The position numbers and the translations under genes were made by a program. From a virus: 23,824 nt of DNA. The notes below the pieces were generated by a model. That model did no database searches and was not told the DNA's origin. It saw nothing but the letters and a program-made list of their open reading frames with translations. The stretch covers positions 1 to 23,824 of IMG/VR virus record IMGVR_UViG_3300029923_000106; one strand, written 5' to 3'. Below, in pieces: positions 1,978-8,306 of this stretch; the first letter of the stretch is position 1, and every line of letters begins with the position of its first letter.

Positions 1978-1996
1978 TAACGTGTCAAAAATATGG

Positions 1997-2036
1997 GATT
2001 TTATGTACATATTAGGGTTTTATTGTACATAAAATC
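1997..2036. promoter_or_regulatory. Perfect 13-bp inverted repeat overlapping the -33 region
   Basis: GATTTTATGTACA at 1997-2009 and TGTACATAAAATC at 2024-2036 match 13 of 13 in inverted orientation, separated by 14 bases. The right arm covers the -33 position of the promoter at 2023-2055. A repressor bound here would occlude RNA polymerase at the exonuclease gene. Confidence 0.6.
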
Positions 2037-2055
2037 GATTTTTTTGTTACTTTTG
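2023..2055 (+). promoter_or_regulatory. Promoter for the exonuclease gene
   Basis: TACTTTTG at 2048-2055 fits TAnnTTTG and is followed by C. TTG at 2023-2025 lies 22 bases upstream, slightly longer than the usual spacing. It gives a leader of about 20 nt before ATG 2080. Confidence 0.5.
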
Positions 2056-2079
2056 CGACGTAACTTAATAATTATGATC

Positions 2080-3399
2080 ATGGAAAAGGATTTTGAAAAC
2101 GAAGAGACTGGTATCGAAAATAGTTTTATAGCTGTTGATTTTGAAACAGCGACAAATACAAAAATGGCTTGCCAGATAGGAATAACCATTGTAAAAAACG
2201 GTGTTATTCAAGAAACTATAACAAGATTGATACAACCTCCATTTAATATTTATGATAAAAATGTATTAGTACATCATCATGTAAGACCAAACATGACAGA
2301 GAGTGAACCGACGTTTGATTTAGTATGGGATGATATTAAAAAATATTTTGAAGGTGCTATTTTTGTAGCTCACAATGTTGATTTTGACAAAGATGTTTTA
2401 GAAAAGAATCTGAACTTCTATGGAATAGGACATCCAGACATCAAAGAATATAAATGTACCTGTAAGTTATACGGGCGTGCCAATTTAGAGAAACTTTGCT
2501 CTGCATTTGACATTCAATGTGATAACCATCATGATGCAGGATTCGATTCTGAATGTTGTGCACAGTTTTACCTAAATTACTTAAATGGAGTAGAACCTAT
2601 CGGATTGGAAGTTACGGACAATGTAACAGATAAGCGTAAGAGGGAAAATAAACTAAGCGGAGACATCTTAAAGAAAGACCTTACTAACGCATACCAGTCA
2701 CCGGAAAATCCGTTTTTTGACAGAAGGGTTGTTGTTACAGGAGTATTTGAGATTGAGAGAAAACGTCTTGGTCTAATTTTGAAAAGAATGGGGGCTGACA
2801 TAAATAGCTCAATATCTAAAAATACGAATTTTGTATTGATAGGAGAAGACCCGGGGTATTCAAAATTAGAAAAATTAGAAAAACTTGAGCATGATGGATT
2901 TAAGATACAGATAATATATGAAAAAGATTTGCAAGAAATCTTTTCCGGCAATGGATTAAGATACCACACGCCGAAAGAAAATAAGAAAGATATCGACCTT
3001 ACAATATCTCATTACGACAAGAGACATATCGTATTTGAAGATATGACAAACGTTATTGCTGGGAAAGAATTGTTCTTAGATAAAGGTATTACGGGGAATA
3101 GAGATTGCTTTTCTCAAATTATAGGGAACCTTGGGGCATATTGTAATTACAGGTTAGATAAGGAAACACAGGTCTGCATATTAAGTATGTCTACTATTAT
3201 TAATTTACGAAAAGGAATAAAAAATGAGGTAATAATTAAAATTCAAAATTACTATAATGAAAACAAGTCAAATATATTTGATTATGATTTTATTTCTGAT
3301 ATTGAGATTCTTGATTATTGTAAGAGGCGTTGTGAGACTTGTGGAGATAAGGTAACAATGAGATTGTATGATGAATATGTTTCCAACTCAGAAGAATAA
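2080..3399 (+). CDS. DnaQ-like 3'-5' exonuclease with BRCT domain
   Basis: The start is placed at ATG 2080 because the longer frame reads back through the promoter and operator. The 439-aa protein opens with a DEDDh exonuclease domain: motif I VDFETA (D20, E22), motif II AHNVDFD (D103) and motif III HHDAGFD (H151, D156). All catalytic residues are present, so 3'-5' exonuclease activity is expected. A BRCT domain follows at about 211-288 (RRVVVTGVF, then LKRMGADI, then TNFVLIGEDPGYSKLEK), a phosphopeptide- or DNA-end-binding module. Residues 310-439 are less clear. They may hold a degenerate second BRCT and end with a cysteine cluster (CKRRCETC). It has its own promoter and operator and shares a unit with the DUF4468-like gene 25 bases downstream. 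Likely roles are DNA repair or nucleic-acid degradation, or phage competition. Confidence 0.8.
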   Translation: MEKDFENEETGIENSFIAVDFETATNTKMACQIGITIVKNGVIQETITRLIQPPFNIYDKNVLVHHHVRPNMTESEPTFDLVWDDIKKYFEGAIFVAHNVDFDKDVLEKNLNFYGIGHPDIKEYKCTCKLYGRANLEKLCSAFDIQCDNHHDAGFDSECCAQFYLNYLNGVEPIGLEVTDNVTDKRKRENKLSGDILKKDLTNAYQSPENPFFDRRVVVTGVFEIERKRLGLILKRMGADINSSISKNTNFVLIGEDPGYSKLEKLEKLEHDGFKIQIIYEKDLQEIFSGNGLRYHTPKENKKDIDLTISHYDKRHIVFEDMTNVIAGKELFLDKGITGNRDCFSQIIGNLGAYCNYRLDKETQVCILSMSTIINLRKGIKNEVIIKIQNYYNENKSNIFDYDFISDIEILDYCKRRCETCGDKVTMRLYDEYVSNSEE

Positions 3400-6258: not shown

Positions 6259-6462
6259 ATGACATACGAAGAGGCTAAAATAAAAGAGAAAACAGCGGAT
6301 TATGTAGCAAACAATAATGCGGCTGATAGTTTAGTGAAATTAAGGAATCGAATATTTTTCGAACTTCATAATGAAATCAAAGAAATATTAGCAAGAGAGA
6401 TATCTGATGCGTATGAACAAGGATATAAGGATGCTATTAAAGAAAAGGAGGAACGGAAATGA
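6259..6462 (+). CDS. Hypothetical 67-aa helical protein
   Basis: ATG 6259 follows ATGGAGGAGATAAT, an excellent SD. The product is acidic/basic and almost wholly helical (EEAKIKEKTADYV, then EIKEILAREISDAYEQGYKDAIKEKEERK), typical of small phage proteins of unknown role. The tail codons supply AAAAGGAGGA for the next gene, with an ATGA overlap. Confidence 0.55.
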   Translation: MTYEEAKIKEKTADYVANNNAADSLVKLRNRIFFELHNEIKEILAREISDAYEQGYKDAIKEKEERK

Positions 6463-6860
6463 ATAATTATGAATTGTATTTAGAACCAGTTCGAGATAGG
6501 AAGTCGAACGGACAATTTGTGAAAGGTAACATTCCCCATAATAAAGGGAAAAAGTGGAATGATTTCGTTCCTCTCGAGAAACAGGAGAAATGTAAAAAAG
6601 GTCTTTTGCTTGGAAGAATCTTAGGGAATAAGAATATAGCAGGATGGAATTCTAGAAAGATAGTCGGCATTGATGAAAATGGTAGATGGTGTGTTTTTGA
6701 TTCCTCACGAGACGCAGCAAGAAAGGTTCAAGGATGTGACGATGCGCTCATAAGACGTTGCTGCAGAGAAAAAGGAATTCATCACCATCGAGGGATAAAA
6801 TGGTTTTTCGAGAATGATCCAAAGTGGTATAAGGAAATAAAAAAGGAGGAACATCCATGA
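6459..6860 (+). CDS. NUMOD-domain DNA-binding protein without a nuclease domain
   Basis: The 133-aa protein has a NUMOD3-like patch (NGQFVKGNIPHNKGKK, residues 17-32) and a NUMOD1-like module (VGIDENGRWCVFDSSRDAARKV, 69-90, then ALIRRCCREKGIHHHRGIKWFF, 96-117). In homing endonucleases such modules bind DNA next to an HNH or GIY-YIG nuclease. I see no HNH signature, so this is either a stand-alone DNA-binding protein or a homing endonuclease remnant that kept only its targeting half. SD AAGGAGGAACGG lies in the previous gene's tail. It overlaps the next gene by four bases. Confidence 0.65.
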   Translation: MNNYELYLEPVRDRKSNGQFVKGNIPHNKGKKWNDFVPLEKQEKCKKGLLLGRILGNKNIAGWNSRKIVGIDENGRWCVFDSSRDAARKVQGCDDALIRRCCREKGIHHHRGIKWFFENDPKWYKEIKKEEHP

Positions 6861-7035: not shown

Positions 7036-7260
7036 ATGGAAAATAACAAAATTACAATGAACGAGAGTGTTACAGAAGGAGTGAGTCACATACAAAGTTC
7101 AGATACTTATCTGAATGATACCATCAACGACACGAGGCGGCTGATTATTGATTTCTCAGACTCTTTCGGAGAAAGGCAATTGCCGAAAGTGATGGAGATA
7201 CTCAAAGGACTGAATATCATTGAGGAGGACATCCTGAAGATACAAGGAGGAGGGGAATGA
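7036..7260 (+). CDS. Hypothetical 74-aa protein preceding the methyltransferase
   Basis: Start at ATG 7036, two bases after the previous stop; a longer frame to 7006 would read into the previous gene. There is no SD, unlike its neighbours. The protein is polar and mostly helical (DTYLNDTINDTRRLIIDFSDSF, then LPKVMEILKGLNIIEEDIL). The last codons, AAGGAGGAGGGG, form the SD of the methyltransferase, which starts at the overlapping ATGA. No family recognised. Confidence 0.55.
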   Translation: MENNKITMNESVTEGVSHIQSSDTYLNDTINDTRRLIIDFSDSFGERQLPKVMEILKGLNIIEEDILKIQGGGE

Positions 7261-8306
7261 GACATGCAAGCCTGTTCTCTGGGTTAGGAGCTGCCGAGTT
7301 AGCAGCAAAATGGATGGGATGGGAAAATATATTTCATTGTGAAATAAATCCATTTTGTCTCAAAACCTTAGAATATTGGTTTCCAGAAAGTAAAGAATAT
7401 GAAAACATCAAAGATACAGACTTTAGACAATGGAGAGGAAAAGTTGACGTCCTCACAGGAGGATTTCCTTGCCAGCCATTTTCACAAGCAGGGAAAAGAA
7501 GAGGAAATAATGATGACCGTTATCTCTGGCCGGAGATGCTACGAGCAATACGGGAAATACAGCCATCTTGGATTGTTGGTGAAAATGTTAATGGAATCAC
7601 CAATATGGTGGAATCCGTTGAAGAGATTGAAGTGGGACGTTCAGACGATATCTTCGATGAGAGTTTCATATACAGAAAGGAAGAGAAATTCACCATCTGG
7701 AGAATTTGTGAAGACCTTGAACAAGCTGGATATTGGGTCCAACCTGTTATTATTCCGGCTTGTGCCGTGGGGGCGCCACACAGAAGAAACAGAGTGTGGT
7801 TTATTGCAACTTCTAAAGACACCAACAGGTTTCGATGCAACGGAAAGACTGACAGCGAAGACAAACCCCACACCGGGGAATACGGGAAGTCTTGCACAGG
7901 AGATAATGGGAGGACTTGTTTTTCTTCCGACTCCGAACGCTGCGGAAGCAACGCACTACTCAAAGAAGTTGAACGTAAACAGCCAGATGGGGAAAGGACT
8001 GACGGCAAGGGCAATAAACAATTTGCTTCCCACTCCGAAGGTTCAGGAAAAAGGAGGAAACTGTTCTCGCGACAGGAAACACAGAAACCTTTCAGACAAA
8101 ATAGCGGAAATATACAATCCAGATGGGAAGGTTTCCCAACTCAACCCCCTATTTGTAGAGGAAATGATGGGATTCCCTTTAATGTGGACGACCTTACCAT
8201 TCCTTTCAAGGAATGGAGAGAAGAAAGCATCAAAGGCTATGGAAACGCATGGGTACCACAAGTAGCATTTGAAATTTTCAAGATTATAGAGAAACTATCA
8301 AAATGA
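7257..8306 (+). CDS. C5-cytosine DNA methyltransferase
   Basis: The 349-aa protein carries the ordered motifs of the Dcm family. Motif I (AdoMet binding) is SLFSGLGAAELA at 5-16. Motif IV is GGFPCQPFS with catalytic Cys72. Motif VI is ENV at 109-111, motif VIII APHRRNRVWFIA at 173-184, and motif X GYGNAWVPQVAFEIF near the C-terminus (about 328-342). It transfers a methyl group to cytosine C5. The target-recognition region (about 185-300) is polar and of low complexity, and the same DNA is open in another frame (7510-8265). There is no cognate endonuclease nearby, so it is an orphan phage methyltransferase, probably protecting phage DNA from host restriction. Last gene of its operon, followed by a terminator. 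Confidence 0.9.
   Translation: MRHASLFSGLGAAELAAKWMGWENIFHCEINPFCLKTLEYWFPESKEYENIKDTDFRQWRGKVDVLTGGFPCQPFSQAGKRRGNNDDRYLWPEMLRAIREIQPSWIVGENVNGITNMVESVEEIEVGRSDDIFDESFIYRKEEKFTIWRICEDLEQAGYWVQPVIIPACAVGAPHRRNRVWFIATSKDTNRFRCNGKTDSEDKPHTGEYGKSCTGDNGRTCFSSDSERCGSNALLKEVERKQPDGERTDGKGNKQFASHSEGSGKRRKLFSRQETQKPFRQNSGNIQSRWEGFPTQPPICRGNDGIPFNVDDLTIPFKEWREESIKGYGNAWVPQVAFEIFKIIEKLSK
7510..8265 (+). CDS. Overlapping +1-frame ORF with methyltransferase TRD-like sequence
   Basis: Lying wholly inside the methyltransferase gene, this frame is open from 7399. ATG 7510 is suggested because GAGG lies just upstream. The 251-aa product has no Dcm catalytic motif. It does have a repeated LLPTP-type pattern (LLKTPTGFD, FLPTPNAAEA, LLPTPKVQEK) and a C-terminal LNPLFVEEMMGFPLMWTTLPF-like block. 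I recall the latter, as LNP-x-(F/W)V-x-x-(M/L)MGFP-x-x-W, from phage DNA methyltransferase recognition regions. Possible readings are a second overprinted protein, an alternative C-terminus reached by a +1 frameshift after motif VIII, or an ancestral frame now lost. Translation is not shown. Confidence 0.45.
   Translation: MMTVISGRRCYEQYGKYSHLGLLVKMLMESPIWWNPLKRLKWDVQTISSMRVSYTERKRNSPSGEFVKTLNKLDIGSNLLLFRLVPWGRHTEETECGLLQLLKTPTGFDATERLTAKTNPTPGNTGSLAQEIMGGLVFLPTPNAAEATHYSKKLNVNSQMGKGLTARAINNLLPTPKVQEKGGNCSRDRKHRNLSDKIAEIYNPDGKVSQLNPLFVEEMMGFPLMWTTLPFLSRNGEKKASKAMETHGYHK

Follow-up and report, generated by a model that had tools for sequence, protein, structure and literature searches.

The window, a stretch of 23,824 nucleotides, is a phage contig, with matches to tape measure, endolysin and other phage families. 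Its plus strand carries two overlapping genes. The alpha gene (7257-8306, frame 0) encodes a C5 cytosine methyltransferase of 349 residues that holds motifs I-VIII and X and is predicted to be without a target-recognition domain (TRD). Motif IV (GFPCQ, 7461-7475) and motif VIII (GAPHRRNR, 7770-7793) were placed by sequence and by the motif I-VIII alignment, and motif X (GNAWVPQ, 8241-8261) lies in a confidently modelled region; these and motif VI are all in frame 0. The beta gene (7399-8265, plus strand) is nested in the +1 frame (frame B) and encodes 288 residues. It begins with the ATG at 7399-7401, at the site where +1-frame stops vanish across the family. Frame B contains three LPTP-type elements, LLKTP (7810-7824), FLPTP (7921-7935) and LLPTP (8023-8037), followed by a motif IX-like block, NPLFVEEMMGFPLMW (8143-8187), in which NPLFVEEMMGFP starts at 8143. 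The block was recognized by alignment with Leperchaun gp69 and by a profile match. A preliminary description had reported a second frame open for 288 codons inside a full Dcm frame, LLPTP-type repeats in that frame, and a Dcm frame that is of low complexity over the same stretch and regains motif X; the ORFs and the repeats are as it described, and frame 0, predicted to be disordered over the stretch, does regain motif X. Elsewhere in the window, an HNH endonuclease-like ORF (6459-6860) lies a little upstream of the methyltransferase, and the ORF at 1993-3399, possibly an exonuclease-BRCT fusion, has a match to a DNA polymerase exonuclease family (34-267), followed by one to the C-terminal portion of DNA ligases (206-298).

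Catalytic and putative recognition sequences of the two frames

Alpha matches Pfam DNA_methylase (2e-39), phrog_363 (1e-64) and NCBIfam dcm (4.6e-32). In an AlphaFold (AF2) model built with 48 sequences, residues 1-190 mostly form a confident fold, that of the C5 methyltransferase large domain, and the motif X region is also folded confidently. Foldseek matches the model to M.HhaI and M.HaeIII over about 190 columns. The protein thus has what defines a C5 catalytic subunit, namely motifs I, IV (PCQ), VI (ENV), VIII and X and the large-domain fold. In a monomeric enzyme, one polypeptide unites motifs I-VIII and X with the TRD and motif IX, but here the IX-like block and the LPTP modules are in the +1 frame. 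Between motifs VIII and X, alpha residues 193-313 (about 120 residues) have pLDDT below 50 and are predicted to be disordered. This linker corresponds to 7833-8195, a boundary drawn from pLDDT and from the wobble switch described below, and the same DNA reads as a putative TRD in frame B. Alpha is therefore predicted to keep its frame open while lacking a small domain.

Beta matches phrog_1008 (1.4e-20). With E values of 8e-10 to 1e-10, a profile of beta finds the in-frame stretch that leads up to motif X in RitaG, Estave1 and Leperchaun gp69. Gp69 is a single-frame protein with one Pfam DNA_methylase stretch that reaches profile position 317 of 324, and the IX-like block aligns inside this stretch. 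On these alignments the C-terminal half of beta is homologous to the in-frame recognition-IX sequence of single-frame methyltransferases. The LPTP modules vary as whole units between near-identical relatives while their flanks stay fixed: locus L047 has one that is absent from L048, and L012, L013 and L016 have differing modules between unchanged flanks. Swapped recognition elements would be expected to look like this. The homology and the module turnover agree with the earlier reading of frame B as resembling a target-recognition region, and support its identity as putative target-recognition sequence. The AlphaFold model of beta is poor (pLDDT 61, pTM 0.29), a Foldseek search with this low-confidence model matched no solved fold, and a sequence search of the PDB returned nothing relevant, just meaningless ester hydrolase matches. 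To our knowledge, the part of beta that lies over motifs IV-VIII has no counterpart among other methyltransferases.

Conservation and selection of the nested frame

The search for relatives covered viral contigs as well as genomes of bacteria and archaea and used the motif I-VIII alignment only, which avoids bias; extra relatives were sought with a Bacillota-type alignment. Openness was scored over 145 fixed codons, from 95 before to 50 after motif VIII. The +1 frame is open over this stretch in 229 of the 231 usable loci and the third frame in none of them; the median overlap of beta with alpha in this sample is 216 codons. Scattered frame-B stops in homologues, the check proposed with the preliminary description, were not found. 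Nearly every locus has one to six LPTP elements in the +1 frame, and almost none occur in frame 0 or the third frame. The layout also occurs in phages of Bacteroides, Porphyromonas, Paenibacillus, Lacticaseibacillus, Klebsiella, Erwinia and Synechococcus. The beta of Klebsiella phage Soft, as sole query, retrieved 223 phage records. Short exact frame-0 peptides used as queries matched the window itself only.

The distribution of the C-terminal motifs between the frames varies. In most loci beta ends just before or at motif X, which is in frame 0. Gordonia phage Geodirt has motif X in the +1 frame. CheeseTouch has motifs IX-X in frame 0 and its LPTP repeats in the +1 frame, and frame 0 of RitaG and Estave1 contains the last LPTP element together with IX and X. 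In all the phages named here, I-VIII, LPTP, IX and X are supplied by the two frames combined. Loci L207, L209, L210, L212 and L214 have the IX-like block in frame 0, or the frames shifted, with frame B ending otherwise, and some frame-B products of this group have a second, degenerate NPxxxEWLMG block. The Leperchaun gene is split into gp68 and gp69 near motif IV (L006:1501-2593) by an apparent indel, compared with the single-frame RitaG gene (L281:601-1689). In a Porphyromonas phage record (L003:2179-2793) the annotated gene is the nested +1-frame one, as a hypothetical protein, and not the methyltransferase frame. In three separate contigs the methyltransferase frame has TGA in place of two Trp codons (L007:1555 and 3634; L128:2549 and 3620; L129:2549 and 3566), one within DLAAE*MGW and one ahead of motif X within FSQ* or FSR*; TGA may be reassigned in these phages, or the genes may be decaying. 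The L007 methyltransferase, from a faecal phage, is also interrupted at its catalytic PCQ motif by an intein-like insertion (PCF...VVHNCQPFS, about 1717-2760).

Stop codons show that frame B is maintained. For the window by itself, shuffling frame 0 synonymously produces a mean of 5.3-9.9 frame-B stops, with zero stops in at most 0.03% of shuffles. Motifs IV-VIII span 108 codons; across 135 loci, one +1 stop was observed there against 661 expected from codon usage and 277 from permutation; a second sample had 2 against 453/139. The control region upstream of beta had 241 against 245/258 expected. The fixed IV-VIII stretch is the fair test, because the repeat region is delimited by the frame-B stop and its +1-stop count is not independent. 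The deficit sets in at alignment columns 49-54, right after columns 43-48, where most Bacteroidota-type loci have the nested ATG. Frame 0 is maintained as well: in the VIII-IX repeat region, given beta, 33 frame-0 stops were observed, in 9 of 183 loci, against 1328/862 expected. A chance ORF is ruled out by the frame-B stop deficit and the 229 open loci.

Substitution patterns were taken from 20 informative close pairs. Mismatch rates at frame-0 codon positions 1, 2 and 3 are.068,.041 and.320 upstream of beta;.092,.042 and.172 over motifs IV-VIII;.306,.173 and.175 in VIII-IX; and.145,.117 and.361 after beta. On either side of beta, frame-0 position 3 changes fastest, but in VIII-IX the fastest is frame-0 position 1, the third position of frame-B codons. 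The rate at frame-0 position 3 drops to roughly half over IV-VIII. Frame 0 is therefore the dominant one over IV-VIII, and in the repeats frame B is. In all 80 held-out loci, the amino acids of beta over IV-VIII score higher than any of the synonymous shuffles. Both frames are kept under selection, and beta is, by these computations, a conserved and selected protein gene with a nested start. The suggestion that both frames are selected is thereby borne out, and of the origins offered for the second frame, overprinting is the right one, given the stop deficits in both frames and the wobble switch. The dual coding had been placed in the repeat stretch; it does hold there, but it is not limited to the repeats, since the overlap over IV-VIII is also constrained.

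Probable internal initiation and a proposed two-subunit methyltransferase

A Shine-Dalgarno sequence of at least 5 nt precedes a nested start in 16 of 19 Bacillota-type loci, against 6.3 expected; the comparison value for internal starts is 2.5%. Two viral sets have such sites in 9 of 17 and 18 of 49 loci, against 4.8 and 8.1 expected. Examples are aaggagagtttttATG in L182, aaggaggcattttTTG in L189 and gggaggttttagaacaagATG in Paenibacillus phage Leyra. These sites point to internal initiation. Bacteroidota-type loci, to which the window belongs by sequence, show no enrichment (29 of 161 against 24.8 expected), and Bacteroidota hosts are thought not to depend on Shine-Dalgarno sequences. For these loci, the window included, homology, position and constraint argue for the nested start.

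The locus is very probably a two-subunit C5 methyltransferase, with a catalytic alpha and a nested recognition beta made by internal initiation, like M.EcoHK31I, in which the gene for the large subunit also encodes the small polypeptide in an alternative frame. Two proteins acting together are suggested by the anatomy and the precedent: the division of motifs between alpha and beta, together with M.EcoHK31I and other split methyltransferases, leads us to propose a nested two-subunit phage enzyme. Alpha would provide the SAM-binding catalytic domain, with motifs I-VIII and X and a flexible linker in place of the small domain. Beta, started from its own ATG at 7399, also in Bacteroidota hosts, would supply the missing small domain, its LPTP modules serving as target-recognition elements that set specificity, together with motif IX. 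One mRNA would yield both proteins, which would then assemble physically into an active enzyme. Its purpose is probably to shield phage DNA from host restriction.

The second frame had also been explained by a frameshifted alternative C-terminus. A programmed +1 frameshift near motif VIII would fuse the catalytic domain to the TRD, with another C-terminus, beside the frame-0 protein, and such a product would account for LPTP coding that starts directly past motif VIII in the +1 frame and for the +1-frame motif X of Geodirt. A frameshift gene should be constrained solely downstream of its shift site, yet in frame B the constraint sets in at the nested start codon near motif IV, some 100-140 codons before motif VIII; in Bacillota-type loci Shine-Dalgarno sites precede this start codon. 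The fusion would moreover be without motif X in most loci, where beta ends before it. A frameshift is thus disfavoured and very unlikely. A fossil of a past frame switch, which had been proposed too, or chance openness with shadow conservation, might be read from the low complexity of frame 0 over the stretch and from the loci in which the frames have clearly rejoined or shifted. The constraint tests refute both: there are 0 or 1 stops where hundreds are expected, the wobble position switches, both frames are constrained in amino acids, and 229 of 231 loci are intact. The probability left to a fossil or to chance is negligible, and the ongoing constraint excludes the fossil option.

Another reading, unlikely on different grounds, is that beta is a genuine nested gene product with a role outside the methyltransferase, for instance as a separate anti-restriction or regulatory protein. 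The N-terminal half of beta is novel, no solved fold was matched, and the alpha-beta interaction is a proposal, all of which would fit such a protein. Its C-terminal half, however, is homologous to the recognition-IX part of single-frame methyltransferases, alpha is predicted to be without exactly that domain, and M.EcoHK31I provides a precedent for the arrangement. These points favour beta as the recognition subunit.

If the two-subunit reading holds, annotations of a very common phage enzyme family are routinely wrong, usually showing a single gene. The recognition subunit would be labelled hypothetical, labelled a second methyltransferase, or overlooked, and the specificity would be inexplicable under a single-gene reading. 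This case of same-strand dual coding is unusual in its length, age and spread. Phages of Bacteroidota, Bacillota, Actinobacteria, Proteobacteria and cyanobacteria supply replicates, which makes it a good system for studying two proteins that evolve on one sequence. Phage anti-restriction specificity would become testable through simple two-ORF expression. More tentatively, and with nearly even odds, full nesting could make obligate heterodimers of a large and widespread class of phage C5 methyltransferases, whose specificity would evolve by swaps of LPTP modules; one frame would read these as recognition elements and the other as a tolerated linker. Beta might then be exchangeable between alphas in trans.

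Comparison with known systems

PHROGs holds phrog_363, the alpha family, and phrog_1008, which matches beta, as two separate families, both labelled DNA methyltransferase, whereas at this locus a single DNA segment encodes both, each in its own frame. The single-frame actinophage methyltransferases RitaG and Estave1 share the homologous LPTP-IX region. They differ in having the recognition part, IX and X in frame with the catalytic motifs, and their +1 frame keeps a beta-like remnant over VI-VIII alone. The genes of M.AquI overlap just partly. M.AquI also consists of two polypeptides, with catalytic motifs I-VIII apart from IX, being split in the variable region between VIII and IX (PMC3404938; PMC3439449), but its beta holds X as well, while the phage locus keeps X in alpha and its beta is fully nested. 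Separately expressed fragments of several C5 methyltransferases reassemble in vivo (PMC3404938; PMC3439449).

Among Paenibacillus larvae phages, both overlapping ORFs of the gp61/gp62 pairs are annotated as DNA-cytosine methyltransferase, as seen for Leyra and in a table of PMC6070908; in the passages searched, that source does not treat the overlap as dual coding. No report of the phage-wide nested pattern was found in the open-licence literature searched. The kind is known from one restriction-modification enzyme, and its spread in phages and the modular nested recognition subunit are undescribed in the open papers searched.

That enzyme, M.EcoHK31I (YGGCCR), is a natural two-polypeptide C5 methyltransferase with motifs I-VIII and X in the large subunit and IX in a small polypeptide (PMC3404938), and the phage loci match its description in anatomy. 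A small polypeptide in another frame inside the large-subunit gene is likewise found at this locus and its homologues. M.EcoHK31I is an E. coli restriction-modification enzyme, and its TRD is assigned to the large subunit (PMC3404938); in the phage loci, unlike M.EcoHK31I, the nested subunit carries repeated LPTP modules, and the overlapping part of alpha reads as a disordered linker.
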